Shown here: piece after piece, positions 42,134 through 56,210 of the stretch | Layout: every line of letters starts with the position of its first letter | Position numbering within the stretch: the first letter of the stretch is position 1 | NCBI RefSeq assembly: GCF_900116705.1 | Contig: NZ_FPBP01000008.1 | Location: 62,001 to 126,000, forward strand | Reading direction: 5' to 3' | Length of the DNA: 64,000 nucleotides | Source: Halomonas korlensis | Lineage (GTDB): Bacteria; Pseudomonadota; Gammaproteobacteria; Pseudomonadales; Halomonadaceae | Notes under the pieces: model-generated | What the model saw: only the letters and a program-made list of their open reading frames with translations | Database searches by the model: none | Told to the model about the DNA's origin: nothing | Translations under genes and position numbers: made by a program

Positions 42134-42224
42134 GCGCCTAGGCCTTGGTCGCAGGTAGCCTCCCGGTATCGCCTTGACCCCAACATGCGGAACATTCCCG
42201 CTCAACCAGGCCACCGGAGGCGCC

Positions 42225-43001
42225 ATGGACCCCATTCGCCGCACCCTTCTCGGCCAGCTGGCCCGCCTCAGCGCGGGTGCCGCCCTGATACCGCTCCCCA
42301 GCGTTGCCAGCGCCGGCATCAACCAGCAGCCACTTCGTCGCGAAGGCGATCCCAGCAAGCGCTACGGCATGCTTATCGACCTGCGCCAGTGCATCGGCTG
42401 CCAGGCCTGCACCGTGTCGTGCCATATCGAGAACGCCGCCCCGCTGGGCAGCTTCCGCACCACCGTCTCCCAGTACGAGGTGGAGCACCAGGAGACCGGT
42501 GAGGTCGCCACCTTCATGCTGCCGCGCCTGTGCAACCACTGCGAGAACCCGCCCTGCGTGCCGGTTTGCCCGGTGGAGGCCACCTTCCAGCGACAGGACG
42601 GCATCGTGGTGGTCGACAGCGACCGCTGCGTGGGCTGCGCCTACTGCGTCAACGCCTGCCCCTACGACGCCCGCTTCATCAACGAGCGTACCCAGACCGC
42701 CGACAAGTGCACCTTCTGCGCCCATCGGCTGGAAGCCGGCCTGCTGCCGGCCTGCGTGGAGAGCTGCGTGGGTGGCGCACGGATCATCGGCGACATGCGT
42801 GATCCGGAGAGCCAGATCAGCCGCATGATCGCCGAGCACCGCGACGAGCTGATGGTGCTGCAGCCGGAAAAGAACACCCTGCCCCAGGTCTTCTACCTCG
42901 GCATGGACGAGCGCTTCGTGACTCGCCCCGACGCCGAGCCGGTCGCCCTGGAAGTCCTCGATCCCCACGGCCAGGAGATGGGCTATGAATTCCGCCATTG
43001 A
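42225..43001 (+). CDS. ttrB: Tetrathionate-reductase-type iron-sulfur subunit TtrB
   Basis: Exported electron-transfer subunit of 258 residues with a Tat-like signal (IRRTLLGQLARLSAG) and four [4Fe-4S] clusters: CIGCQACTVSC, CNHCENPPCVPVC, CVGCAYCVNAC and CTFCAHRLEAGLLPACVESC. This is the DmsB/NrfC/TtrB pattern. GGAGG lies five bases before the ATG at 42225; the frame is open back to 42174. It passes electrons from the quinone-oxidising membrane subunit to the molybdenum subunit. Order B-C-A matches ttrBCA of Salmonella and also the selenate reductase operon srdBCA of Bacillus, so the symbol is provisional. Confidence 0.85.
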   Translation: MDPIRRTLLGQLARLSAGAALIPLPSVASAGINQQPLRREGDPSKRYGMLIDLRQCIGCQACTVSCHIENAAPLGSFRTTVSQYEVEHQETGEVATFMLPRLCNHCENPPCVPVCPVEATFQRQDGIVVVDSDRCVGCAYCVNACPYDARFINERTQTADKCTFCAHRLEAGLLPACVESCVGGARIIGDMRDPESQISRMIAEHRDELMVLQPEKNTLPQVFYLGMDERFVTRPDAEPVALEVLDPHGQEMGYEFRH

Positions 43002-44193
43002 GCTGCTCGCCCCGCGCTACGACATCGCCTGGTACCCCTGGGCGGTGCAGTACTTCTTCATGATCGCGCTGTCCTACGCCACCCTGTGGCTGGCCGCCCC
43101 GGCGCTGGTGTTCGGCAAGCAGCGCTGGCTGCCCACCGCACGCCTGGCGCTGCTCGCCTGCCTCACCACCACCCTGGTGGCGCCGGTGGCGCTGCTCGCC
43201 GACCTGCACCAGCCGCTGCGCTTCTGGCACTTCTATGCCTACGCCAACAGCCACTCCTGGATGTCCGTCGGCAGTCTGGTGTTGCCCCTCTACGTGGTCG
43301 GCGTGATCGTGCTGGCCTGGCTCGCCTGGCGCCCGGCGCTGCAGGCCCATCGCCAGGCCCCCGGCATCGCCGGTTTCGTGGCCCGCTGGCTATCGCTGGG
43401 CGACGCCCCTACCCCGCGCGCCCTGGTGGTGCTGGTGGGCCTCGGTACCCTGGCCCTCTCCACCGGCATCATGCTCTATACCGGCGCCGAGGTGGCCATC
43501 GTCAAGGCCCGTCCGCTGTGGCACACCGTGTGGCTGCCGCCGATGTTCGTGGCCACCGGCTTCATCGCCGCCACCGGCCTGATCCTGGTGCTCAACCGCG
43601 TGGCCGGTGAACGCAGCACCACGGTCAGCCGCCAGATGCTCAAGGTGATGCTGGGGGCCTGCCTGGTCGCCGGACTCGTCGCCGGCAGCTGGTTCCTCGA
43701 CGGCATCAACGCCAGCGTCGGCTCGGTGGCCGCGGCCATGGAGTCCGTGCGCGGCAGCGCCGAGTGGCGCAGCACCGCTCTGTGGGGCGGCCTCACCGGC
43801 GTGGTGCTGTTCGGCGCCGTGCTCTACCTGCTGACTCGCCCCGCCTCACGTCGCCCGGCACTCTATGCCTGGGCCTGGGTGCTCGGCCTGGTGGCCCTGC
43901 ACGTCGGCTGGATGTTCCGCTGGGTGGTGCTGATGGACGTGCAGACCGTGGCCCGCCACAGCGCCGGCTTCCACCACTACGGCATTCCCGCCGGCTCTTC
44001 CGGCATCCTCGGCATCGTCGGCACCTTCGGCCTGTGGCTAGCCGCCATCCTGCTGATCGACCTCTTCGTGCCGTGGCGCCAGGCCCGCCAGGGCGGCAGC
44101 GCCGCCGACCTTTCACCTGCAAACTCCGCCCCTGCACACCCCGACGCCCAGAGCGCTGCGGAAACCACTGAAGGAGCCCCCAGCCATGGCTAA
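42985..44193 (+). CDS. ttrC: NrfD/TtrC-type quinol-oxidising membrane subunit
   Basis: Membrane anchor of 402 residues with about nine to ten hydrophobic helices, in the NrfD family. It starts with IAWYPWAVQYFFMIALSYATLWLAAPALVF and the end reads LRW..., then VGTFGLWLAAILLIDLFVPW. It takes electrons from quinol and hands them to TtrB. The N-terminus overlaps the ttrB 3' end by 17 bases and its 3' end overlaps ttrA by 8, so all three are coupled. The last about 35 residues (SAADLSPANSAPAHPDAQSAAETT) are a low-complexity hydrophilic tail. Confidence 0.85.
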   Translation: MNSAIELLAPRYDIAWYPWAVQYFFMIALSYATLWLAAPALVFGKQRWLPTARLALLACLTTTLVAPVALLADLHQPLRFWHFYAYANSHSWMSVGSLVLPLYVVGVIVLAWLAWRPALQAHRQAPGIAGFVARWLSLGDAPTPRALVVLVGLGTLALSTGIMLYTGAEVAIVKARPLWHTVWLPPMFVATGFIAATGLILVLNRVAGERSTTVSRQMLKVMLGACLVAGLVAGSWFLDGINASVGSVAAAMESVRGSAEWRSTALWGGLTGVVLFGAVLYLLTRPASRRPALYAWAWVLGLVALHVGWMFRWVVLMDVQTVARHSAGFHHYGIPAGSSGILGIVGTFGLWLAAILLIDLFVPWRQARQGGSAADLSPANSAPAHPDAQSAAETTEGAPSHG

Positions 44194-47100
44194 GTCCCCC
44201 GTCGATTCCTTACGCCGCCGCTTCATGAAGGGGGCCGTCGCCGCCGGTGGTGCCGCCACCTTCGCCGCCGGCTACTCCGACCCGCTGATCAAGATGGGCA
44301 AGGGCGTCACCGGCAGCGCCGGCGAGAAGCCCGAGCACCGCATCCACGGCAACTCCCTGGCGCCGGAGTACACCGTCGACCCCGAGAGCGGCGAGCTGAC
44401 CCTCAACCCCGACCAGCGCGTGGCCTTCACCGTCTGCTACGGCTGCACCACCAAGTGTGGGGTGCGGGTGCGCGTCGACAATGACACCGACCAGGTGCTG
44501 CGCGTCTCCGGTAACCCCTACCACCCGCTCTCCGCCGACGAGCACCTGCCCATGCGCACCCCGGTGGTCGAGGCCCTGCGCGGGCTGAGCGCCTATGGCG
44601 ACCAGGGCCAGCAGAACCGCTCCACCGCCTGCGCCCGCGGCAACGCCATGATGGCGCAGATCGACAGCCCCTTCCGCGTCACTCACTGCCTCAAGCGGGT
44701 CGGCGAGCGTGGCGGCCGCGAATGGCAGAAGATCAGCTTCGAGCAGCTGATCGAGGAGATCTGCGAGGGCGGCGACCTGTTCGGCGAGGGTGCAGTGGAC
44801 GGCCTGCGCGCCATCCATGACCACGACACCCTGATCGACCCCGAGAACCCCGAGTACGGCCCGAAGGCCAACCAGCTGATGGTGATGGAGGCCACCGATT
44901 ACGGCCGCTCCGCGCTGCTCAAGCGCTTCACCATGAACGCCTTCGCCACCCGCAACTATGGCCACCACGGCTCCTACTGCGGCTTGGCCTATCGCATGGG
45001 CTCCGGCGCGGTGATGGACGATCTGGCCAAGAACGCCCATACCAAGCCGGACATCCAGAACGCCCGCTTCATCCTCTACGTGGGCACCGCCCCCAGCCAG
45101 GCCGGCAACCCCTTCAAGCGCCAGGGCCGCCTGATCGCCCAGGCCCGCGCCGAGGGCAGCCTGGAGTACGTGGTGGTCGACCCGGGCCTCAACGCCTCGG
45201 CCTCGCATGCCGCCGACCACAACCGCTGGGTACCGATCCGCCCGGGCAGCGACAGCGCCCTGGCCATGGGCATGATCCAGTGGCTGCTCGACAACGGGGG
45301 CTACGCCAAGGAGTTCCTGGAGCTTCCCGGCCAGCCCGCCGCCGAGGCCGCCGGGGAGGCGACCCACACCAACGCCAGCCACCTGGTGATCACGAACGAT
45401 GAGCACCCGCGCCGCGGCCGCTTCCTGCGCGCCAGCGACCTAGGCCAGGCCGAGGCCGGCAGCGACGCCGACGTGCCCATGGTGGTGGCCGACGGAGAAC
45501 TGGCACAGGGCAACGCGGTGATGGCCGCCGAGCTGTTCGTCGACCGCGAGGTGGAGCTCGCCGACGGAGAGAGCGTGCGGGTAAAGAGCAGCATGACCCT
45601 GCTGCGCGAGTCCGCCAACGAGTACAGCCTGGCCGAGTATGCCGAACACTGCGGCATCCCCGAGGCCACCATCGTCGACCTGGCCACCCGCTTCGCCCGC
45701 CACGGCCGTCGCGCAGTGGCCAACTCCCATGGCGGCATGATGTCCGGCAACGGCTTCTACGCCGCCTTCGGCATGCAGATGCTCAACGTGCTGGCCGGCA
45801 ACCACAACCGCAAGGGCGGCAGCGCCGCTGGCGGCGGCCAGTTCAACGGCGTCGGCACCGGTCCCCGCTACGACCTGGCCAACTTCCCCGGCAAGCGCGG
45901 CCCTCAGGGGGTCTTTCTCTCCCGCTCGCGCTTCCCCTACGAGAAGTCCTCCGAGTACCAGCGCAAGGTGTCCGCCGGCGAGAATCCCTACCCGGCCCGC
46001 GCCCCCTGGCGTTCGCTGGCGCCGCCCACCCTCACCGAGCACCTGCCCTCGGCGCTGGACGGCTACCCCTACCCGATCAAGGCGCTGATCGGCTGCATGG
46101 CCAACCCCATCTACGGCCAGGCGGGCCTCGAGACGCTGATCGCCGAGAAGATCAAGGACCCCAAGCGCCTGGGGCTGTTCGTGGCCATCGACGGTTTCCT
46201 CAACGAGACCAACCGCTACGCCGACTACATCGTGCCCGACTCGGTGATGTATGAGGTGTGGGGCTTCACCGGCGCCTGGAAAGGCACCCTGGGCAAGATG
46301 ACCACCGCCTGCTGGCCGGTGGTGGAGCCGCGCCAGCAGAAGACCGAAGAAGGCGAGCCGGTCTCCATGGAGAGCTTCTTCATCGCCACCGCCAAGCGCC
46401 TGGGCCTGGCCGGTTTCGGCGACGAGGCGATCCCCGACGCCGACGGCAACCTGCACCCGCTCAACCGTGCCGAGGACTTCTTCCTGAGCGCCGCCGCCAA
46501 CGTGGCCATGCAGGGTGAAGCGCTGCCCGCGGCCGACGAGAGCGACATCGCCCACGCCGGCCTGGCCCCGCTGCTGCCCAGGCTGGAGCGCACCCTCAAG
46601 CCCGAGGAGCGCGGCCCGGTGGCCTACCTCTACGCCCGCGGCGGGCGCTTCGAGGACTTCAAGGACCACTTCAAGGGCGAGAACCTCACCAGCGTCTGGA
46701 AGCGCACCCTGTGCGTCTACAACGAGCAGGTGGGCACCAGCATCAACACCCAGAGTGGCCAGCCCAACCGCGGCGTGCCCTGCCACGGCCTGCCACCACT
46801 GGCCGACGGCCGCAGCATGCGCGAGGTGTTCACCGAGGAGGAGTGGCCGCTGCTGGCGTTCTCGTTCAAGTCCAACCTGATGAACTCCTACGCCATCGGC
46901 CTCGAGCGGCTGCGCATGATCAAGCCCTACAACCCGGTGATGATGCACCGCCAGGACGCCGAGCGCTTCGGCATCCAGCACGGCGACACCATCCGCATCG
47001 AGAGCCCCGGCGGCAGCGTAGTGGGCCTGGCGTTGATCGGCGAGGGTGTGATGCCGGGAGCACTGGGCATCGAGCACGGCTACGGCCACCGCGACCTGGG

Positions 47101-47287
47101 GGCCACTCCCCACGTGATTGACGGCGAGTCCCAGCCCGATCTCGAGTGGCTTCGCGCCGGTATCAACATCAACGACCTGGGCTTCAAGGATCCCACTCGC
47201 AGCGTGGACGGCACTTGGCTGGAGCCTATCAGCGGCGCCGCCGTGCGCCAGGGTCTGCCAATTCGGGTAACCCGTATAGATACCTGA
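44186..47287 (+). CDS. ttrA: TtrA-type molybdopterin oxidoreductase (tetrathionate or selenate reductase catalytic subunit)
   Basis: A 1033-residue catalytic subunit with Tat signal RRRFMKGAVAAGG. One [4Fe-4S] cluster is bound by Cys84, Cys87 and Cys91 (CYGCTTKC) with a fourth Cys in STACARGNA. HHGSYCGLAYRMGSGAV is the segment around the molybdenum, with a candidate Cys ligand. The beginning GYSDPLIKMGKGVTGSAGEKPEHRIHGNSLAPEY matches TtrA. Tetrathionate is the reference substrate, selenate is an alternative because srdA has the same type and order and selenium genes are next. No ttrSR two-component pair is near; an FNR box precedes the operon. AAGGAG lies upstream of the ATG. It converges with egtD after 13 bases. 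Confidence 0.85.
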   Translation: MAKSPVDSLRRRFMKGAVAAGGAATFAAGYSDPLIKMGKGVTGSAGEKPEHRIHGNSLAPEYTVDPESGELTLNPDQRVAFTVCYGCTTKCGVRVRVDNDTDQVLRVSGNPYHPLSADEHLPMRTPVVEALRGLSAYGDQGQQNRSTACARGNAMMAQIDSPFRVTHCLKRVGERGGREWQKISFEQLIEEICEGGDLFGEGAVDGLRAIHDHDTLIDPENPEYGPKANQLMVMEATDYGRSALLKRFTMNAFATRNYGHHGSYCGLAYRMGSGAVMDDLAKNAHTKPDIQNARFILYVGTAPSQAGNPFKRQGRLIAQARAEGSLEYVVVDPGLNASASHAADHNRWVPIRPGSDSALAMGMIQWLLDNGGYAKEFLELPGQPAAEAAGEATHTNASHLVITNDEHPRRGRFLRASDLGQAEAGSDADVPMVVADGELAQGNAVMAAELFVDREVELADGESVRVKSSMTLLRESANEYSLAEYAEHCGIPEATIVDLATRFARHGRRAVANSHGGMMSGNGFYAAFGMQMLNVLAGNHNRKGGSAAGGGQFNGVGTGPRYDLANFPGKRGPQGVFLSRSRFPYEKSSEYQRKVSAGENPYPARAPWRSLAPPTLTEHLPSALDGYPYPIKALIGCMANPIYGQAGLETLIAEKIKDPKRLGLFVAIDGFLNETNRYADYIVPDSVMYEVWGFTGAWKGTLGKMTTACWPVVEPRQQKTEEGEPVSMESFFIATAKRLGLAGFGDEAIPDADGNLHPLNRAEDFFLSAAANVAMQGEALPAADESDIAHAGLAPLLPRLERTLKPEERGPVAYLYARGGRFEDFKDHFKGENLTSVWKRTLCVYNEQVGTSINTQSGQPNRGVPCHGLPPLADGRSMREVFTEEEWPLLAFSFKSNLMNSYAIGLERLRMIKPYNPVMMHRQDAERFGIQHGDTIRIESPGGSVVGLALIGEGVMPGALGIEHGYGHRDLGATPHVIDGESQPDLEWLRAGININDLGFKDPTRSVDGTWLEPISGAAVRQGLPIRVTRIDT

Positions 47288-47300
47288 TAGGTAGGGTTGT

Positions 47301-48296
47301 TCAGCGAACTAGGCGGCTTGAATATGCGACCGCCTGTTCGCTCAATAAATAATGAACGCTGAACAGCGCCTGCGGATCGGTCCACACCGCCGTCGGGGCA
47401 AAGCCGGCGCGTTGCGCCAGCGCCTGGAACCCTTCGACGCTGTACTTGCACGAATTCTCGGTATGCAGCGTTTCGCCCGCCGCAAGCATAAAGTCCCGCC
47501 CTCCGACGCGGATCGCCTGTTCGCGCAGGCTCTCCAGGTGCATCTCGATGCGCGACGCCGCCTCGTGATAAAACGCCAGGTGCCGGAAACCTGCCGGGAC
47601 GAGTTCGGCGCCGAGTTCATCGCGCAGGCGCTTGAGCAGGTTCAGGTTGAACGCCGCCGTCACGCCCGCGGCGTCGTTGTAGGCCGCCTCGAGGATGTCG
47701 CGATGCTTGATCAGGTCGACCCCGATCAAAAGCCCGCTACCCTTCGGCAGCAGACGATGCAGCCCGGCCAGGAAGGCCTCGGCCGCCACCGGTTCGAAGT
47801 TGCCGATGCTCGACCCGGGGAAGAAAGCCACCGCACGTCCCCCGCTCACTCCTTGAGGCAAGGACAGGCGTCGTGAAAAGTCTGCCCAGACGGCATGCAC
47901 CTCGAGCCAAGGGTAATCAGCGGCGAGACGCCGCGTGCTTTCCAGCAGGAACTCGCGTGAGATATCGACGCCCAGATAGCGCGCCGGCTGCATCGCCTCG
48001 AGCAGCAAGCGGACCTTGCGACTCGCCCCGCTGCCAAGCTCGACCAGCAGCGACTCGGGGCCGGCAAGCTCGGCGATCTCGGCGGTGGCCGCGGCGAGAA
48101 TCTGCTCCTCGGTGCGGGTCAGGTAATACTCGGGCTGGGTGCAGATGCGCTCGAAGAGCGCCGAACCCCGCCGGTCATAGAAGTATTTCGGCGACAATGC
48201 CTTGGGTCGGGCGCTCAGGCCTGACATCACGTCATCGAGAAAGGACGGATCGGCGTCGTCAACATGCTGATCGTGAAAGCGCACGGCCTGGGTCAT
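47301..48296 (-). CDS. egtD: L-histidine N-alpha-methyltransferase EgtD
   Basis: SAM-dependent enzyme of 331 residues that trimethylates histidine to hercynine, the backbone of ergothioneine and selenoneine. The opening SPKYFYDRRGSALFERICTQPEYYLTRTEEQIL is diagnostic. LVELGSGASRKVRLLLEA is the SAM site and AFFPGSSIGNFEP the family core. GAGG lies eight bases before the ATG. It is divergent from the flavin/SelD fusion gene (87 bases between starts) and followed by convergent ttrA. No egtA, egtC or egtE gene is present nearby, which disfavours the usual mycobacterial ergothioneine set. Confidence 0.95.
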   Translation of the reverse strand: MTQAVRFHDQHVDDADPSFLDDVMSGLSARPKALSPKYFYDRRGSALFERICTQPEYYLTRTEEQILAAATAEIAELAGPESLLVELGSGASRKVRLLLEAMQPARYLGVDISREFLLESTRRLAADYPWLEVHAVWADFSRRLSLPQGVSGGRAVAFFPGSSIGNFEPVAAEAFLAGLHRLLPKGSGLLIGVDLIKHRDILEAAYNDAAGVTAAFNLNLLKRLRDELGAELVPAGFRHLAFYHEAASRIEMHLESLREQAIRVGGRDFMLAAGETLHTENSCKYSVEGFQALAQRAGFAPTAVWTDPQALFSVHYLLSEQAVAYSSRLVR

Positions 48297-48303
48297 GGCG
48301 TAT

Positions 48304-48348
48304 CCTCGTGAGCACTGTCCTCATGAACACTGTCTTCGTGAACACTGC
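48304..48348. repeat. 15-bp tandem direct repeat, three copies, in the egtD/selD gap
   Basis: CCTCGTGAGCACTGT, CCTCATGAACACTGT and CTTCGTGAACACTGC lie head to tail, with 1-3 differences between neighbours. They fill most of the gap between the divergent egtD and selD-fusion starts, where promoters should be. Confidence 0.75.
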
Positions 48349-48383
48349 TGAGCGTGATCCTTCAATCTAGAGAGAGTCTTCCC

Positions 48384-50717
48384 ATGCAGCAACCGGATTC
48401 CCCGGTATTGCGCGATATCGTGCTGGTCGGCGGCGGTCACAGTCATGTCGGTGTCCTCAAGCGCTTTGCCATGCGGCCCGAACCCGGTGTGCGCCTGACG
48501 CTGATCTGCCGCGACACCCACACGCCCTATTCCGGCATGCTGCCGGGCTATGTGGCCGGGCATTACACCTACGACCAGGTGCATATCGACCTGCGTCGAC
48601 TCGCCCAGTACGCTGGGGCCCGCTTCTTCAGCGACGAGGCCTTGGGCATCGACCACGACGCGCGAACCGTGCTGTGCCGGTCGCGCCCGCCGGTGCCCTT
48701 CGACCAGCTATCGATCAACATCGGCTCGACGCCGCGGGTCGATGCGGTGCGGGGCGCCGGCGAGCATGCCGTGCCGGTCAAGCCCATCCACCAGTTCAAC
48801 GACCGCTGGCAGGCGCTCATCGAGCGACTTACGCACCATCACCCAAGGCACCATCCCGGCAGGACCCGCGTGGCGGTGGTCGGCGGTGGCGCGGGCGGGG
48901 TCGAACTGCTGCTGGCCATGCAGACCCGGTTGCGTGGCGAGCTTGCCCGCCAAGGGCGCGACCCCGACGAACTGGTGTTCGCGCTCTACACTCGGGGCAG
49001 CCAGATCCTGCCGACCCACAATGCCCGCGTGCGCGAGCATTTCCAGCGCACCCTCACCGAGCGCCGCGTCGAGCTGCACACCGCGACCGAGGTGGTCGCC
49101 GTCGAGGCGGGCCGGCTGCAGAGCGCCTCAGGCGACTGGCACAACGCCGACGAGATCGTCTGGGTCACCAACGCCGGCGGCGCGGCCTGGCTGCGCGAGA
49201 CGCGCCTGGTGCTGGACGACGACGGTTTCATCCAGGTCGGCGACACCCTGCAGTCGCTGAGCGACCCCGGCATCTTCGCCGCCGGCGATATCGCCAGCCA
49301 GGTCAACCATTCCCGCGAGAAGGCCGGCGTGTTCGCCGTGCGTCAGGGCCGTCCGCTGGCCGACAACCTGCGCGCCGCCATCACCGGCCGGCCACTCAGG
49401 CCCTATCGCCCCCAGCGCCGCTGGCTGGCCCTGATCAGCACCGGCGACCAGTCTGCCGTGGCCTCGCGCGGCGACCTGTATCTGGCCGGCGACTGGGTCT
49501 GGCGCTGGAAGGATTGGATCGACCGGCGCTTCATGGCCCGATTCACGACCCAGCTCAACGACCTGCTCCCCATGCCAGCGCACCAGGGCAAGACGGCGAA
49601 ACCCAGCCGGGTGGCGCTCGACGAGGAAGAGAGCGCCCAGGCGATCTCGGCGATCGCCATGCGCTGCGGCGGCTGTGGCGCCAAGGTCGGCGCCTCGGTG
49701 CTGTCGCGGGCGCTGTCGACGCTTGAGCCCTTCCCGCGCGAAGAGATACTGGTCGGTCTGCACGCCCCGGACGACGCTGCGGTGGTGCGCGTCCCGCCGG
49801 GCAAGGACATGGTGCACACGGTTGATTTCTTTCGCGCCTTCATCGACGACCCCTATGTGTTCGGCAAGGTCGCGGCCAATCATGCGCTGGGTGACATCTT
49901 CGCCATGGGCGCCGAGGCGCAGACCGCCACCGCCGTGGCCACCGTGCCGCAGGGGCTCGAGGCCAAGGTCGAGGATACGGTGTACCAGATGATGCGCGGC
50001 GCCCTGGAGGTGCTGAACGAGGCCGGCTGCTCGCTGGTCGGCGGACACACCGGCGAGGGCCAGGAGCTGGCACTCGGGTTCGCAGTCAACGGCCTGATCG
50101 ATGCCGGCGGCGATAGCGCCCTGACCGATTCCATACTGACTAAGGGCGGCCTGCGTCCCGGCCAGGCGCTGATCCTCACCAAGCCCATCGGCACCGGTAC
50201 CCTGTTCGCCGCCCACGCCCGGCTGGGCGCCAAGGGGCGTTGGATCGACGCCGCGCTCACGCACATGTGCCAGTCCAATCGCCAGGGCGCGGCCTGCCTG
50301 CGCGAGCATGGGGCCACCGCCTGCACCGATCTCACCGGCTTCGGCCTGCTGGGGCACCTGGTCGAGATGACCCGCCCCTCGGGCGTCGATGCCGAACTCG
50401 ACCTCGCCGCCCTGCCGCTTCTCGATGGCGCGGAGGAGACCGTCGCCGCAGGCATTCTCAGCTCCTTGCAGCCGGCTAACGTGCGCCTGCGCCGGGCCAT
50501 CCACGATCAGGCGGCGTGGGTCGACCACCCCCGTTATCCGCTGCTGTTCGACCCGCAGACCGCCGGCGGCCTGCTGGCCAGCGTCCCCGCCGAGCGCGCG
50601 GCGGCCTGCCTGAGCGCCCTGCACGCTCTCGGCTACGGCCAGGCGGCGATCATCGGTCAGGTTCACGCCTCGGGTGAGGCGCTGGAACCCATCCGCCTGA
50701 CCGATGGCAGTCGATAG
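48384..50717 (+). CDS. selD: Selenide, water dikinase (SelD) with N-terminal FAD/NAD(P) oxidoreductase domain
   Basis: Two-domain protein of 777 residues. Residues 1 to about 400 are an NDH-2/pyridine-nucleotide-disulfide-type flavoprotein: DIVLVGGGHSHVGVL (FAD), RVAVVGGGAGGVELLLAM (NAD(P)H), and PGIFAAGDIA. Residues about 425-777 are SelD, which makes selenophosphate from selenide and ATP. The catalytic region is RCGGCGAKVG with Cys431 as nucleophile and Ala433 at the site of the second E. coli cysteine. LVGGHTGEG and DLTGFGLLGHL are further conserved parts. The flavin domain may supply reducing equivalents to make selenide; that is inference. The start used is the ATG at 48384; a GTG at 48354 is an alternative. 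By context this is the SenC of a selenoneine pathway. Confidence 0.92.
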   Translation: MQQPDSPVLRDIVLVGGGHSHVGVLKRFAMRPEPGVRLTLICRDTHTPYSGMLPGYVAGHYTYDQVHIDLRRLAQYAGARFFSDEALGIDHDARTVLCRSRPPVPFDQLSINIGSTPRVDAVRGAGEHAVPVKPIHQFNDRWQALIERLTHHHPRHHPGRTRVAVVGGGAGGVELLLAMQTRLRGELARQGRDPDELVFALYTRGSQILPTHNARVREHFQRTLTERRVELHTATEVVAVEAGRLQSASGDWHNADEIVWVTNAGGAAWLRETRLVLDDDGFIQVGDTLQSLSDPGIFAAGDIASQVNHSREKAGVFAVRQGRPLADNLRAAITGRPLRPYRPQRRWLALISTGDQSAVASRGDLYLAGDWVWRWKDWIDRRFMARFTTQLNDLLPMPAHQGKTAKPSRVALDEEESAQAISAIAMRCGGCGAKVGASVLSRALSTLEPFPREEILVGLHAPDDAAVVRVPPGKDMVHTVDFFRAFIDDPYVFGKVAANHALGDIFAMGAEAQTATAVATVPQGLEAKVEDTVYQMMRGALEVLNEAGCSLVGGHTGEGQELALGFAVNGLIDAGGDSALTDSILTKGGLRPGQALILTKPIGTGTLFAAHARLGAKGRWIDAALTHMCQSNRQGAACLREHGATACTDLTGFGLLGHLVEMTRPSGVDAELDLAALPLLDGAEETVAAGILSSLQPANVRLRRAIHDQAAWVDHPRYPLLFDPQTAGGLLASVPAERAAACLSALHALGYGQAAIIGQVHASGEALEPIRLTDGSR

Positions 50718-50747
50718 TGGATAGTGGATAGTGGATAGTGGATAGTG
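50713..50747. repeat. GATAGTG heptamer repeated five times
   Basis: Five perfect head-to-tail copies of GATAGTG. The first copy contains the selD stop codon (TAG), and the array ends one base before the stop of the convergent SenB-like gene, so it fills the whole gap. Copy number changes would not alter either protein. Confidence 0.92.
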
Positions 50748-51740
50748 TTAAAGGGTGAGGCCGCAGGCGGCGATGACCCGCGCCAACCCCGCGCGTTCGG
50801 CATCGGGATGAAACAGCGGTGCTCGTGCCTGAACCTGGCGGCGCAGCCCCTCGACGAAGGCGGGCTCCGCCTCGGCGCGCAGCAGGCCCTCGCGCAACGC
50901 CTGGGTATCGGCCACCGCAAAGTAGCCGGCGTAGTCCTCGCCGAGCAGGCCGCGGTTGCCGGCAATGTCGGAGGCCAGCACCGGCAGCCCTGCCACGCAG
51001 GCCTCGCTAACCACGTTGGCGCCGCCCTCCATGCGCGAGCTGATCACCATCAGCCGCGCCCTGGCCATCCAGCGGCGCACCTGCCAATGGGGCAGGTCGC
51101 CGAGCCAACGGTAACGCGGATTGCGCGCCATCTCGTCACGGGCATTTTCAGCCCATGTCTCGTCGTGAACGCCCCCCAGCTGGATGACCCGCAGGCGCGA
51201 CGCCGCCGGCAGCTCGCGCACGGCCAGTGCGGCACGCAGCGAGTCCTTCTCCTCGCGCAGATGGCCGGCTACCAGCACCTCGTAGTGGCCCTTGATCGGC
51301 CCCGGCGCGCCTGGCGGCAAGGGCAATGCCGATTGATGCACGACATGCAGACGCGCATGAAAGCACGGCGGGATATCCGCTTTCACCTCGTCGTGCAGGC
51401 CCACCAGCGCGTCGGCCGACGTGAGACTCTCGAGAAACGCCTCGGGGTGGCTGTGCTGGAAGCGGTAGATATCGGTGCCGGTGAGCGCCACGGCCAGCGG
51501 GGTGTTCGCGAAGGCCTCGCGGCAAGCGCGAATGGCCGCGTGGCTGCGCAGGGCGTGCAACGCCACCACCAGGTCCGGCGGCCTGCCATCGAGGCGGCAC
51601 GCATCGGCGTCTTCGTCGGAGCCGACCACCCGCACCCGGCAGCCTAGCTCGCGCAGCAGCCTTGCCCAGCGCGTCGCCGTAGCACGATTGCCGGCACGCG
51701 AGCCTCGACCCGCCGGGGTGATCAGCGCTATTTTCACCAC
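50748..51740 (-). CDS. senB: Selenosugar synthase-like glycosyltransferase SenB
   Basis: GT4-fold glycosyltransferase of 330 residues. IALITPAGRGSRAGNRATATRWARLLRELG opens the protein; ISSRMEGGANVVSEACVAGLPVLASDIAGNRGLLG is the nucleotide-sugar part with the conserved Glu. Family members located beside selD and EgtB-like genes are SenB, which joins selenophosphate to a UDP-sugar and makes a selenosugar. The start is GTG at 51740, with AGGAG eight bases upstream. It is divergent from the SenA-like gene with only 26 bases between the starts, and convergent with selD. Confidence 0.88.
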   Translation of the reverse strand: MVKIALITPAGRGSRAGNRATATRWARLLRELGCRVRVVGSDEDADACRLDGRPPDLVVALHALRSHAAIRACREAFANTPLAVALTGTDIYRFQHSHPEAFLESLTSADALVGLHDEVKADIPPCFHARLHVVHQSALPLPPGAPGPIKGHYEVLVAGHLREEKDSLRAALAVRELPAASRLRVIQLGGVHDETWAENARDEMARNPRYRWLGDLPHWQVRRWMARARLMVISSRMEGGANVVSEACVAGLPVLASDIAGNRGLLGEDYAGYFAVADTQALREGLLRAEAEPAFVEGLRRQVQARAPLFHPDAERAGLARVIAACGLTL

Positions 51741-51766
51741 TGGCGTTTCTCCTCGACGAGGTCGGC

Positions 51767-53131
51767 ATGCTCTCTACCACCTTCAGCACACCCCCCACAC
51801 CCCCGCGCGCCGCCGACGATCTGGCGGCCATGCTCACCGATGCCCGCCAACGCAGCCTGGCGCTGATGCATGACACTCTGGACGCCCGCGAGCTCGGCCC
51901 GCGGCTCGCCATCGTCAATCCACCGCTGTGGGAGCTGGGTCATCTTGGGTTCTTCCACGATTATTTCGCCCTGCGCGGGCTCTACGCGCTGCCGGACTAT
52001 CAACTTGCCGATGCCGACCGGTTGTTTGATTCGAGCAGCATCGCCCACGACGACCGTTGGGCGCTACCGCTGCCGGCGTGCGAGACGACGCTGGACTATC
52101 TGTCGCGCGTCGAGCAGGCCATGCTCGAGCGACTGCCCGAGGGCCAGGCGAGCGCGGCGCAGAGTTACGTCTACCAGCTCACCACCCTGCACGAGGACAT
52201 GCACGGCGAGGCGTTTCTCTACACCCGCCAGACCCTCGGCGACCCCGCGCCCGAGCTGGGCAAGCCACCGCCGGACCAGCGTCCCGGCGAGATGGCCACC
52301 GGTCCGCTGCCCAGCGACGTCGCCATTCCCGGCGGGCGCCACCTGCTGGGCTCCGATGACAGCGTGCCCTTTCGCTTTGATAACGAGAAGCCGCCGATGA
52401 CCGTCGAGGTCGCCCCCTTCCGGATCGCCCGCGCGCCGGTGACCAACGCCGAGTTCGCCGCCTTCGTCGCCGACGAGGGGTATGAACGGCGCGAGCTGTG
52501 GAGCGAGGCGGGATGGCAATGGCGCACGTCTGTGGACCTGCACGCCCCGGGCGACTGGCGAAAGACCCAGGCGGGAATCCCTGGCGCCAATGGCTGGGAG
52601 GAGCGCCACTTCGACCGCTGGCTGCCCCTGGCGCCGCATCAGCCGGTGGCGCATGTCAGCTGGCACGAGGCCCAGGCCTGGTGCCAGTGGGCCGGGCGAC
52701 GGCTGCCCACGGAGGCCGAATGGGAGGTCGCCGCCAGCCGCGTGCCGACGGACGACGGAAAATCGCTGGCACCCGGCAAGCGTCGCTATCCCTGGGGCGA
52801 GGCACCACCCGATGCCCGCCGGGCCAACCTGGACGCCTGGCGCCTGGGGCGCGTCGATGTCGCCGCCTTCGCCGACGGTGACAGCGCCTTCGGCTGTCGG
52901 CAGATGCTGGGCAATGTCTGGGAGTGGACGGCCTCGACCTTCGGGCCCTTCCCCGGGTTTTCCCCTGATCTCTACCGCGACTACTCGGCCCCCTGGTTCC
53001 CGGAAGGCCGCCGCGTCCAGCGTGGCGGCGCCTGGGCGACACGCTCGCGGCTGATCCATAATGGCTATCGCAATTTCTTCATGCCCGACCGCCGCGATGT
53101 TCTGGCGGGGTTTCGCACCTGTGCGCGCTGA
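51767..53131 (+). CDS. senA: Selenoneine synthase SenA / EgtB-like non-heme iron enzyme
   Basis: A 454-residue enzyme in the EgtB family: an N-terminal DinB-like domain and a C-terminal formylglycine-generating-enzyme-like fold. The iron ligands fit His59 (WELGHLGFF) and His142/His146 (HEDMH), matching EgtB's three-His site. RMPTEAEWE-type motif appears as RRLPTEAEWEVAAS and GNVWEWTASTF later. EgtB joins a thiol to hercynine; SenA does the same with a selenosugar. Sequence alone cannot separate them, but neighbouring selD, SenB and the absence of egtA/C/E argue for SenA. The transporter genes follow after 64 bases, so one operon is plausible. Confidence 0.88.
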   Translation: MLSTTFSTPPTPPRAADDLAAMLTDARQRSLALMHDTLDARELGPRLAIVNPPLWELGHLGFFHDYFALRGLYALPDYQLADADRLFDSSSIAHDDRWALPLPACETTLDYLSRVEQAMLERLPEGQASAAQSYVYQLTTLHEDMHGEAFLYTRQTLGDPAPELGKPPPDQRPGEMATGPLPSDVAIPGGRHLLGSDDSVPFRFDNEKPPMTVEVAPFRIARAPVTNAEFAAFVADEGYERRELWSEAGWQWRTSVDLHAPGDWRKTQAGIPGANGWEERHFDRWLPLAPHQPVAHVSWHEAQAWCQWAGRRLPTEAEWEVAASRVPTDDGKSLAPGKRRYPWGEAPPDARRANLDAWRLGRVDVAAFADGDSAFGCRQMLGNVWEWTASTFGPFPGFSPDLYRDYSAPWFPEGRRVQRGGAWATRSRLIHNGYRNFFMPDRRDVLAGFRTCAR

Positions 53132-53195: not shown

Positions 53196-54068
53196 ATGCT
53201 CGGACGCTTGTCTCTAGTGTTGTCGGTTGCGCTGCCACTGCTGCTTGCCACCTCAATCGCCGGGGCCAGCCCCTTCGTCTTCACCGCCATTCCCGACGAG
53301 GACGAGACGCGCCTGCAGCAGCGCTTCCAGAAAGTCGCCGATTATCTCGCGGACGAGCTCGAGGTCGAGGTGCGCTTCGTGCCGGTAAAGTCCTACGCCG
53401 CGGCGGTCACCGCCTTTCGCAACGATCAGGTGCAACTGGCCTGGTTCGGGGGTCTCTCCGGCGTGCAGGCGCGCCAGCGCGTGCCCGGCTCGCAGGCCAT
53501 CGCCCAGGGCGTGGAGGACCCCGACTACAAGAGCTATGTCATCGCCCATCGCGACAGCGGTCTGACCCCGGTCGAGGGCGACAGTGCGCCGGAGGCGCTG
53601 CGCGGCCTGACGTTCAGCTTCGGCTCCAAGAGCTCCACCTCCGGCCGGCTGATGCCCGAGTATTTCCTGCGCAACGATTTCGGCGCGGCGCCGGAAGAGA
53701 TCTTCGAACGCGTCGGCTTCAGCGGCAACCACAGCCGCACCATCTCGCTGGTCGCCTCCGGCGCCTATCAGGCCGGCGTGGTCAGCTACAAGGCCTGGGA
53801 GAACGAGGTCGCCGCCGGCAACGTGGATACCGATGCGGTGCAGGTCGTCTGGGAGACGCCGCCCTATCCCGACTATCAATGGACGATTCGCGGCGATGTC
53901 GACGCGCGCTTCGGCGACGGCTTCAGCGAGCGAGTCCAGCAGGCGCTGCTCGACATGGACGATCCGGCACTGCTCGAGAGCTTCCCGCGCTCGGGCTTCA
54001 TCCCGGTGGATAACGACGACTACGAGATTATCCACCAAGTCGGCCAGCAGCTCGACATCCTCGATTGA
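53196..54068 (+). CDS. PhnD-like ABC transporter substrate-binding protein (putative selenium oxyanion binding)
   Basis: Periplasmic binding protein of 290 residues. The signal peptide ends near SIAGASPF; the chain starts with FVFTAIPDEDETRLQQRFQKVADYLADELEVEVRFVPVKSYAAAVTAFRNDQVQLAWFGGLSGVQAR, the phosphonate/phosphite (PhnD) layout, and continues with SFGSKSSTSGRLMPEYFLR. AAGGA lies before the ATG. Position next to selD, senA and senB suggests the ligand is selenate or selenite, as proposed for a PhnD-like subfamily that co-occurs with selD; phosphonate or phosphite uptake remains possible. It is translationally coupled to the ATPase gene (TGATG). Confidence 0.82.
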   Translation: MLGRLSLVLSVALPLLLATSIAGASPFVFTAIPDEDETRLQQRFQKVADYLADELEVEVRFVPVKSYAAAVTAFRNDQVQLAWFGGLSGVQARQRVPGSQAIAQGVEDPDYKSYVIAHRDSGLTPVEGDSAPEALRGLTFSFGSKSSTSGRLMPEYFLRNDFGAAPEEIFERVGFSGNHSRTISLVASGAYQAGVVSYKAWENEVAAGNVDTDAVQVVWETPPYPDYQWTIRGDVDARFGDGFSERVQQALLDMDDPALLESFPRSGFIPVDNDDYEIIHQVGQQLDILD

Positions 54069-54721
54069 TGACCTCGCTCGCCCTCACCGACGTGGTGGCC
54101 AATTACGGCGGCGCGCGCGTGCTCGGTCCGCTCAACCTGACGCTGGCGCACGGCGAGCGGGTGGCCCTGGTGGGCAGAAGCGGGGCCGGGAAATCGACGC
54201 TGCTGAGCATCATGCAGCAGCACTGGCAGGCAAGTGGCGCGGCCCTGATGCCCCAGGAGCTGGGTCTGGTGCCCTCGCTGAGCGTCTTTCACAACGTTTA
54301 TATGGGCGGGCTCGCCAGGCGACCCAGCTGGTACAACCTGGCCAGCCTGGTGCGCCCCTTCCGCCGCGATATCGACGCCATCACGCCGCTGCTCGAGCGG
54401 CTCGGCATCGCCGACAAATGCTGGGCCGCGGCCGGCGAGCTCTCGGGTGGCCAGAGCCAGCGCGTCGCCGCGGCGCGGGCGATTTACCAGCAAGGCGACC
54501 TGCTGCTGGCCGACGAGCCGGTCTCGGCCCTCGACGGGCCACTGGCCGAACTGGTCATGGCGGCCTTGACCGAGGCCTACCCCACCGCAGTGTTGGCCAT
54601 GCACGACGTGGAGCTGGCCCTGCGCTTCACCGACCGGGTCGTGGGCATCGCCGATGGTGCGATCGCCCTGGACGAGCCCAGCCGCCGGCTCAGTGTCCAG
54701 GATCTGCTGGTGCTGTACTGA
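54068..54721 (+). CDS. PhnC-like ABC transporter ATP-binding protein, short form
   Basis: ATPase of 217 residues. Walker A is GRSGAGKST, signature LSGGQSQRVAAARAI, Walker B LLLADEPVSALD, H-loop AMHDVEL. The region between Walker A and the Q-loop (MPQELGLV) is only about 18 residues, much shorter than the usual about 40, which accounts for its small size compared with PhnC (about 250 residues). The ATG at 54068 overlaps the binding-protein stop. The fused permease gene starts one base after its stop. Together they form a complete importer. Confidence 0.88.
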   Translation: MTSLALTDVVANYGGARVLGPLNLTLAHGERVALVGRSGAGKSTLLSIMQQHWQASGAALMPQELGLVPSLSVFHNVYMGGLARRPSWYNLASLVRPFRRDIDAITPLLERLGIADKCWAAAGELSGGQSQRVAAARAIYQQGDLLLADEPVSALDGPLAELVMAALTEAYPTAVLAMHDVELALRFTDRVVGIADGAIALDEPSRRLSVQDLLVLY

Positions 54722-54722
54722 C

Positions 54723-56210
54723 ATGTGGCGCTCGGCGACCGTTCGTACCAGCCTCGGCTTCGTGGTGCTGGCCATCGCCTGTGTATTCGTCGCCGACTTC
54801 GAGATCAGCGCCCACGCGCCCTGGGCGGAACTGGGTCGCCTGTTCCTGGGGCTGGTGCAGCCGGATTTCGAGGCGGTGGACTATCTCGGTGAGGCGATCG
54901 TACGCACCTTGGCCTTCGCCTTCGTCGGCGTGGGGCTGGGAGCGGCAGCGGGCCTGTTGCTGGCGCTGGTGTTTCGCCATCTGGTGGTGCGCACCAGCTG
55001 TGCCTTCGTGCGCGCCATACACGAGCTGTTCTGGGCGCTGATCTTCCTGCAGTTCTTCGGCCTGCACCCGCTGACCGGGGTGCTCGCCATTGCCATTCCC
55101 TATGCCGGCATCTTCGCCAAGGTGTATGCCGAGATCCTCGACGAGAGCGACCCAAGCCCATCGAAGGTGATTCCCCACGGCACCGGCCTGGTCTCGGCAC
55201 TCGCCTATACCCGCTTCAGCCAGGCCTGGCCGCACCTGGTTACCTACACCGCCTACCGGCTCGAGTGTGGCCTGCGCTCCAGCGCCGTGTTGGGCTTCGT
55301 GGGCATGCCCACCCTGGGGTTCTACCTGGAATCCTCGTTTGCCCAGGGCCAGTACGCCACGGTGGGTGCGCTGTTGTTGCTGTTCTATGCGCTGATCGCC
55401 ACGCTCAGACTCTGGGCACGCCCGCGCCTGCTGCCGTTCTACCTGCTGGCCGCACCCTTCCTGCTCGGCGACGGCCTGCCAATTCGCTGGCAGAACGTCT
55501 CGCGGTTCTTCACCGAAGACATCGTTCCCGAACCGCTGCGCCAGGGCGAAGGGCTCGCGGGGCTCGTGCCCTGGCTGGGCGACCTGCTCGCCAACGAGGC
55601 GCTGCCGGGCATCTGGAACACCCTGGTACTGACCCAGATCGCGCTGGTGGCGACTGGCCTTCTGACGCTCGCGCTGTATCCGCTGGTTTCTCATCATTTC
55701 ACGGGGCGCCACTTCACCGGCCGGGTGCGCGGTGCGCTGGGCCACGGCGTACTGGTGGTGATGCGCTCGACCCCGGAGTACCTGCTGGCCTTCATTCTGC
55801 TGCAGCTCTGGGGGCCATCGATGCTGCCGGCGGTGGTGGCGCTGGCGATCCACAACGGCGGCATCATCGGCCATCTGATCGGGCGGCGCAGCAACGAGGT
55901 GTCGCTTCGCCCCGATGCGCCACGCGGCATCGAGCGCTACGCCTTCGAGCTCACCCCGCGTCTCTACGGTCCCTTCCTGGCCTTCCTGTTCTACCGCTGG
56001 GAAATCATCATGCGCGAGACCGCCATCCTCGGCATTCTCGGCATCGCCACCCTGGGGTTCTACGTCGACAGCGCGATCCAGGAGATCCGCTTCGACCGGG
56101 CCATGGTCTTGATCGTGATCACCGCCCTTCTCAATATTGGTGTGGACATCCTCGCTCGCCGTCTGCGCAACCGCCTGCGCCTGCGACATACCGCTCAGAG
56201 CGAACCATGA
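54723..56210 (+). CDS. PhnE-like ABC transporter permease, two permease domains fused
   Basis: A 495-residue inner-membrane protein. It has two tandem permease domains, each with about five to six helices and an EAA-type loop (the first near EILDESDPSPSKVIPHGTGLVSALAYTRF, the second near RPDAPRGIERYAFELTPRLYGPFLAF); each ends with a matching TLGFY motif (GMPTLGFYLES and GIATLGFYVDS). So both halves of the permease dimer are one chain. The ATG at 54723 follows the ATPase stop by one base; the open frame to 54654 is inside that gene. Cargo as for the binding protein: probably a selenium oxyanion, possibly a phosphonate. Confidence 0.85.
   Translation: MWRSATVRTSLGFVVLAIACVFVADFEISAHAPWAELGRLFLGLVQPDFEAVDYLGEAIVRTLAFAFVGVGLGAAAGLLLALVFRHLVVRTSCAFVRAIHELFWALIFLQFFGLHPLTGVLAIAIPYAGIFAKVYAEILDESDPSPSKVIPHGTGLVSALAYTRFSQAWPHLVTYTAYRLECGLRSSAVLGFVGMPTLGFYLESSFAQGQYATVGALLLLFYALIATLRLWARPRLLPFYLLAAPFLLGDGLPIRWQNVSRFFTEDIVPEPLRQGEGLAGLVPWLGDLLANEALPGIWNTLVLTQIALVATGLLTLALYPLVSHHFTGRHFTGRVRGALGHGVLVVMRSTPEYLLAFILLQLWGPSMLPAVVALAIHNGGIIGHLIGRRSNEVSLRPDAPRGIERYAFELTPRLYGPFLAFLFYRWEIIMRETAILGILGIATLGFYVDSAIQEIRFDRAMVLIVITALLNIGVDILARRLRNRLRLRHTAQSEP

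Follow-up and report, generated by a model that had tools for sequence, protein, structure and literature searches.

A probable selenoneine biosynthesis gene cluster with its own egtD in Halomonas korlensis

Four neighbouring genes of Halomonas korlensis, egtD, an ndh-selD fusion, senB and senA, raise the question of which compound they would make: the selenium antioxidant selenoneine, the selenium compound ovoselenol, or the sulfur compound ergothioneine. The genes lie in a stretch of 64,000 nucleotides (assembly GCF_900116705.1, contig NZ_FPBP01000008.1, positions 62,001 to 126,000), called the window here, and all coordinates below are positions in it. An earlier reading of the letters alone, made without database searches (the sequence-only reading), had described the four genes as a selenoneine cluster. 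All four were found where it placed them, and all score over the curated bit-score cut-offs of the NCBIfam models by which gene families were called. The locus is very likely a selenoneine biosynthesis cluster.

In the characterised route, a selenophosphate synthetase makes selenophosphate, SenB turns this into a selenosugar and SenA joins the selenosugar to hercynine; the sugar is then lost, and reduction yields selenoneine (PMC9814287; PMC10702425, available in part). The pathway has been described before, and both SenA and SenB already have named public family models; that the locus is a further example of it, and not a new type of system, is well supported. The present analysis adds the discrimination from OvsA, the ovoselenol enzyme, a separate clade of EgtD, a transporter, the behaviour of the genes as a cassette at a fixed site, and the coexistence of selenoneine genes with those for selenocysteine, selenouridine and ergothioneine. 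The result would extend selenoneine synthesis, complete with a hercynine supply of its own and probably a transporter, to salt-tolerant bacteria that have cultured relatives. A literature search for Halomonas together with selenoneine found no report; it did not cover the two papers of Kayrouz et al., and nothing is concluded from it.

Four genes and the steps they would catalyse

The features of the cluster are the following.

47301-48296, minus strand: egtD, histidine N-alpha-trimethyltransferase (hercynine supply); TIGR03438 401 bits, cut-off 291
48303-48347, no strand: 15-base-pair tandem repeat, three copies, in the egtD/ndh-selD gap (repeat search)
48354-50717 (open reading frame; start ATG at 48384), plus strand: ndh-selD fusion (SenC role), NADH-dehydrogenase-like oxidoreductase and selenophosphate synthetase
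50709-50747, no strand: 7-base-pair tandem repeat (AGTGGAT, 5.6 copies), spanning and following the ndh-selD 3' end and preceding the senB 3' end
50748-51740, minus strand: senB, selenosugar synthase (Se-glycosyltransferase); TIGR04348 384.6 bits, cut-off 300
51767-53131, plus strand: senA, selenoneine synthase (non-haem iron selenoxide synthase); NF041186 497 bits, cut-off 420

The window EgtD aligns across residues 13-314 with 4uy7, which we take to be an EgtD of the Mycobacterium smegmatis type, and keeps the Tyr, Asn and Glu/Ser positions that are presumably the substrate residues. It would methylate histidine to hercynine. In the fusion protein, the Ndh half is recognised by TIGR03169 (502 bits, cut-off 310) and the SelD half by TIGR00476 (293 bits, cut-off 125), and the start at ATG 48384 is common to all eight aligned loci. 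The SelD domain keeps a CxxC motif at C438/C441, plus K444; in the alignment with the 3u0o chain, C441 and K444 stand opposite C17 and K20, which we assume to be the catalytic Cys and Lys of SelD. The fusion would form selenophosphate from ATP and reduced selenium, the latter possibly provided by its oxidoreductase half. An NADH dehydrogenase that prepares the SelD substrate has been suggested earlier, and CxxC in the SelD domain is a reported trait of Ndh-SelD fusions (PMC2432076 and PMC2398784, respectively, as far as their available parts go).

The glycosyltransferase, which the sequence-only reading called SenB-like, is indeed a SenB: in addition to its score over the TIGR04348 cut-off, its PDB matches are 8k5u, 8jjn, 8jjq and 8fbx (E 4e-45 to 2e-44), and it keeps all 11 residues that were checked (N18, T21, H62, R65, T87, T89, D90, R162, K165, E238 and E246). 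The residues probed by mutagenesis in Variovorax paradoxus SenB are N20, T23, H58, R61, T83, T85, D86, R155, K158, E231 and E239 (PMC10891094, available in part). Related loci were surveyed around the best 80 of 414 SenB relatives, in named genomes, so that all counts are biased to close relatives. Nine of the 11 SenB residues are identical in all 80 loci, among which the closest is that of H. jincaotanensis (88%), and its nearest SenB loci mark the organism as one of the Halomonas type. By analogy with the known enzyme, the window SenB would make a 1-selenosugar from selenophosphate and a uridine diphosphate (UDP)-sugar.

The decisive gene is senA. As the sequence-only reading had noticed, its EgtB-like product has all three iron histidines (H59, H142 and H146), which are invariant in all 70 SenA-family proteins counted. 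Its pocket triad, Y406/N436/F437, is that of V. paradoxus SenA, whereas wild-type OvsA (8u41) has M/Q/A at these positions. The title of PDB entry 8ux5 reads 'OvsA M401Y/Q430N/A431F from Halomonas utahensis, a hercynine-binding variant with selenoneine-biosynthetic activity'; those three changes therefore shift OvsA to the triad that is natural in the window enzyme. Among the 70 family members, the triad is Y/N/F in 44, Y/N/Y in 15, M/Q/A in six and incomplete in five. By these residues, the pocket of the window enzyme is of the hercynine type and not of the histidine type. Using non-haem iron and oxygen, SenA would link the imidazole of hercynine to the selenium of the selenosugar, and the resulting selenoxide would collapse to selenoneine.

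The place of the window protein in its family agrees with this. The careful SenA tree, of 84 rows, unites the OvsA rows in a single clade (support 100/100), separates off the EgtB rows (99/99) and places the window SenA in a Halomonadaceae clade of 26 rows (100/100) within a SenA clade of 35 rows (99/98). This tree was made without L033-L035 and L037-L042 (each a same-scoring duplicate of a named locus) and without members shorter than 380 residues; rows longer than 520 residues were cut to the last 460, and the EgtB rows exclude L016, L019 and the weaker rows L024-L031. The protein thus lies outside EgtB, in a clade of SenA plus OvsA (99/99), and the glycosyltransferase is a SenB; neither outcome that the sequence-only reading had named as refuting was seen, and the proposed SenABC gene set with its own EgtD stands.

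Among these loci, EgtD occurs with SenA and not with OvsA. The 80 loci comprise 63 of the SenA type, seven of the OvsA type and ten with neither gene in the stretch examined, and EgtD is present in 32, none and none of these, respectively. Contig ends near some loci can hide an EgtD; with only loci of at least 18 kb counted, it is present in 25 of 35 SenA-type and 0 of 5 OvsA-type loci. Within the Halomonadaceae, 23 of the 24 SenA-type loci have it, the exception (L059) being on a contig that ends 1.9 kb past senB. In a quick tree (without L033-L035, L037-L042, L060, L134 and EgtD fragments of 250 residues or less), the sen-linked EgtDs of Halomonadaceae, including that of the window, form a clade of 23 rows with a Shimodaira-Hasegawa-like approximate likelihood ratio test (SH-aLRT) support of 96. 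EgtB-linked EgtDs fall outside this clade, including a second EgtD of the same genome (contig C13), which is 62.8% identical to that of the window. The EgtD and SelD of the cluster may be paralogues dedicated to selenoneine.

A cassette at a fixed site and its neighbours

The alternating gene orientation, which had been called unusual, turned out to be the usual layout: 62 of 63 SenA-type loci have senA and senB divergent, and 48 of the 49 in which selD was detected have it convergent with senB. In Halomonadaceae the locus occupies one syntenic site, from the TRAP/TAXI-lhgO genes to ilvD, with variable content (ABC stands for the ATP-binding cassette transporter and ttr for the molybdoenzyme genes described below).

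ttr, egtD, ndh-selD, senBA and ABC: the window, L041, L053
ttr, egtD, ndh-selD and senBA, without ABC: L034, L039, L040
egtD, ndh-selD, senBA and ABC, without ttr: L033, L035, L037, L042
ttr, ndh-selD and ABC: G027, L132
ttr and ndh-selD: G011, L131
ttr and ABC: G004, L137
ttr alone: G007/G008, L138/L139

One further genome, G001 (L140), has ttr without ilvD or other genes of the site. At the site, egtD, senB and senA are jointly present or jointly absent, with ndh-selD in between and L059, at its contig end, as the exception; this joint behaviour links EgtD with SenA and SenB into one product cassette. The physiological role of selenoneine, of which little is known, could be tested on related species that differ in whether the site holds the cassette. 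In a metagenome-assembled genome (L038/L055; L038:11749-12926), ndh-selD is missing and egtD directly follows senB, while egtD, senB and senA remain; an apparent remnant of the ndh-selD 5' end is present, which would reflect a deletion or an assembly fault.

A shared regulatory motif in the two divergent gaps was considered and rejected. In these gaps, alignments of 8 and 20 of 25 loci (those with the anchor motif) showed little conservation beyond the start regions, and a sigma-70 scan gave no promoter-like site. The 15-base-pair repeat is not conserved among the eight aligned loci (L051 is similar), and the gap between egtD and ndh-selD has an ordinary fold as RNA (z -1.03).

Directly 3' of senA, an ABC transporter is encoded (53196-56210).

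53196-54068, plus strand: substrate-binding protein of a putative selenate ABC transporter; TIGR04553 391 bits, cut-off 250
54065-54721, plus strand: ABC transporter ATPase (PhnC-like); best NCBIfam match TIGR02315, under its cut-off
54723-56210, plus strand: ABC transporter permease (PhnE-like); TIGR01097 in two stretches, 196 bits, under its cut-off of 217; start set from relatives of 495 residues

Selenate is the database name of TIGR04553 and the substrate is putative, but the transporter probably imports a selenium oxyanion. Members of the family that pass its cut-off occur in 33 of the 37 genus genomes, whether or not these have sen genes.

On the other side of egtD lie the genes of a divergent TtrBCA-like molybdoenzyme (42174-47287), of which all three subunits are under the tetrathionate reductase cut-offs; the TtrB-like subunit passes the DsrO cut-off as well (242 against 200 bits).

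42174-43001, plus strand: ttrB, TtrB 405 bits, cut-off 416
42985-44193, plus strand: ttrC, TtrC 195 bits, cut-off 314
44186-47287, plus strand: ttrA, TtrA 1319 bits, cut-off 1750

The molybdoenzyme could belong to the system and reduce a selenium oxyanion for it, which we consider unlikely. The idea draws on the company that ttrA keeps: all seven of the 37 genus genomes (own included) that have both ttrA and ndh-selD have them at one site, either side by side (G011 and G027, in which egtD, senB and senA are lacking there) or with only egtD in between, and the two genes co-occur with a Fisher p of 0.018, uncorrected for relatedness. In these tests on the genus, the partial SenA of G003 was counted as present, and 'EgtB' means about 345-360 bits on the SenA model. 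No association of ttrA with senA is seen in the genus, however (p 0.24), and only 9 of the 63 SenA-type loci have ttrA. Over all 58 genomes searched (own included), ttrA occurs in 11, in seven of them at the ndh-selD site; the remaining four have neither ndh-selD nor sen genes. Moreover, tetrathionate reductase is the best-matching family, and an N-terminus that by eye is of the twin-arginine translocation (Tat) type points to the periplasm, while selenophosphate forms in the cytoplasm. As a required partner, Ttr is thus weakened by the ttr-only and sen-only sites, and the TtrBCA-like enzyme is probably a neighbour that is incidental to the sen cluster.

A wider version is just as speculative: a full selenium module in which the TtrBCA-like enzyme would act on selenium oxyanions, the ABC transporter would import, Ndh-SelD would activate selenide, and egtD, senB and senA would be an exchangeable product cassette that is absent in sister lineages, while other Halomonadaceae would run ovoselenol enzymes on the same chassis. 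If true, the Halomonadaceae would be natural exchange experiments on the function of selenoneine.

Selenoneine, ovoselenol or ergothioneine

Several observations weigh against the assignment of the locus to selenoneine. The NF041186 SenA model does not separate SenA from OvsA: at a cut-off of 420 bits, the OvsA of L043 (9361-10716) reaches 436 bits and that of L081 (11021-12352, Vreelandella utahensis) 419.8 bits. Therefore 'selenoneine synthase' annotations can be ovoselenol enzymes, and a score over this cut-off is weak by itself. Among PDB sequences, the window protein matches OvsA best (315 bits), then V. paradoxus SenA (247 bits) and EgtB (241 bits). For its AlphaFold2 (AF2) model (mean predicted local distance difference test score, pLDDT, 90.4), Foldseek puts OvsA first, and the best Z score is that of EgtB (4x8b; 47.3, root-mean-square deviation 2.3, 418 aligned), followed by OvsA (46.2; 2.0, 417 aligned) and SenA (41.0; 1.9, 371 aligned). 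These values do not tell EgtB, OvsA and SenA apart. In the tree, the SenA rows do not all fall in a single clade, two changes being needed; V. paradoxus SenA is a long branch (2.86) placed only loosely at the base, and we know of no assayed enzyme in the clade of the window SenA. The triad varies among SenA-type proteins (Y/N/Y in 15 of 70, Y/T/Y in L036). No EgtD is seen within the stretch examined in 31 of the 63 SenA-type loci, sen-linked EgtDs from outside the Halomonadaceae do not fall in the Halomonadaceae clade, and the association of EgtD with SenA-type over OvsA-type loci (Fisher p 0.013) is uncorrected for relatedness. The L036 gene (L036:6051-7460) is itself of the SenA type and has an adjoining egtD.

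The closer of the two other products is ovoselenol or a related 5-selenohistidine, which would follow if the EgtB-like enzyme were an OvsA that puts selenium onto histidine. OvsA leads both the PDB sequence search and Foldseek, and OvsA loci of related Halomonadaceae (L078 and L081) share the chassis of SenB, Ndh-SelD and ABC transporter. Nevertheless, we regard this as very improbable, since the triad is Y/N/F and not M/Q/A, the protein lies outside the OvsA clade, in which 8u41 is identical to L081 of V. utahensis, and the partner methyltransferase is a different one. Next to the OvsA of L081, the tested OvsA locus, stands an OvoA-C-terminal methyltransferase (TIGR04345 277 bits, cut-off 170), and three further OvsA loci (L078, L079 and L098) have a methyltransferase that is alike by eye, which makes four of the four OvsA loci inspected. 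The window has EgtD instead, and no protein of the genome is over the TIGR04345 cut-off (best 21.7 against 170 bits). The ovoselenol reading was rejected on triad, partner methyltransferase and tree; where the SenA family model blurs selenoneine and ovoselenol enzymes, three residues and the partner methyltransferase appear to separate them.

That the locus is a sulfur (ergothioneine) cluster merely resembling sen is hardly credible and was rejected on model scores and tree position: EgtB and SenA do have fold and iron site in common, the highest structural Z is that of EgtB and the window protein scores 301 bits on the EgtB model TIGR03440, but this is under the cut-off of 360 while the SenA cut-off is passed, the protein falls outside the EgtB clade, HEDMH with Met replaces the HExQH with Gln of the EgtB rows (4x8b, L044, L015-L023), Phe438 replaces the Asp of 4x8b (an Asp that the EgtB on contig C13 also lacks), SenB and SelD adjoin, and the genome already has a separate EgtB-EgtD pair.

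Selenoneine thus remains the preferred product of the window cluster, and a further selenometabolite need not be invoked for most SenB genes without a SenA or OvsA beside them. In nine of the ten genomes with such a locus, a full-length SenA- or OvsA-type match lies on another stretch or contig (eight over the cut-off, one at 419.1 against 420 bits), which mostly explains them; for the tenth (L123), no SenA- or OvsA-type match was found elsewhere. In four of the ten genomes (those of L094, L090, L100 and L093), a SenA-type gene (Y/N/F or Y/N/Y) and an OvsA-type gene (M/Q/A) lie no more than about 1.2 kb apart on another contig or stretch (L147/L155, L149/L157, L150/L156 and L151/L163, respectively). 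Because the two types are paired here, selenoneine and ovoselenol may draw on a common selenosugar supply.

Other selenium genes of the genome and known systems

The rest of the genome modifies the picture in one respect: the cluster is not its only hercynine system, because contig C13 carries the second EgtD with a sulfur-type EgtB (TIGR03440 571 bits, cut-off 360). The sequence-only reading had egtA and egtC absent. This is borne out in so far as EgtA gave no match genome-wide at E 0.001 and the best EgtC match, of 42.7 bits, stays under the cut-off of 218.65, although 14 control genomes gave none over the cut-offs either, so that the sensitivity of both searches is not demonstrated. Of the other selenium genes that it named, selA and mnmH were found, selA with a tRNA-Sec about 2 kb away and mnmH with an adjoining stand-alone selD. 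An orphan SelD without other selenium use was rejected, as selA, tRNA-Sec, mnmH and a second SelD are all in the genome. Besides the selenoneine genes, the genome thus holds those for selenocysteine (selA, tRNA-Sec), for selenouridine (mnmH) and for ergothioneine (EgtB-EgtD). EgtB-type proteins and SelA occur in the same seven of the 37 genus genomes (own included), which are probably one clade, and only the window genome adds SenA.

Four known systems bear comparison. With known Ndh-SelD fusions, the window protein shares the domain order and the CxxC of SelD, and it differs in being tied to selenoneine genes, with a stand-alone SelD beside mnmH in the same genome (PMC2398784, PMC4561486 and PMC2432076, in their available parts). 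The ergothioneine EgtB-EgtD pair on contig C13 has an EgtD that is 62.8% identical and an EgtB of common fold, whereas its EgtB carries the motif HEQQH, is over the EgtB cut-off and has neither SenB nor SelD among the surrounding genes seen (L044).

The ovs (ovoselenol) locus of Vreelandella/Halomonas utahensis (OvsA, PDB 8u41/8u42), reportedly described by Kayrouz et al. in 2024, has an enzyme of the same family on the same chassis of SenB, Ndh-SelD and ABC transporter (L078, L081). It combines the OvsA triad M/Q/A with an OvoA-C-terminal methyltransferase, whereas the window combines Y/N/F with EgtD. The sen cluster of V. paradoxus (SenA, SenB and SenC), which is said to have been described by Kayrouz et al. 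in 2022, shares with the window cluster the checked SenB residues, the SenA-type iron site, the hercynine triad and a selenophosphate synthetase. Its SenA and SenB are only distantly alike to those of the window (phmmer 247 and 156 bits, respectively), and the window cluster differs from it in having its own egtD inside, perhaps also in the fusion of its SelD to Ndh, and in an attached ABC transporter of the selenate type.

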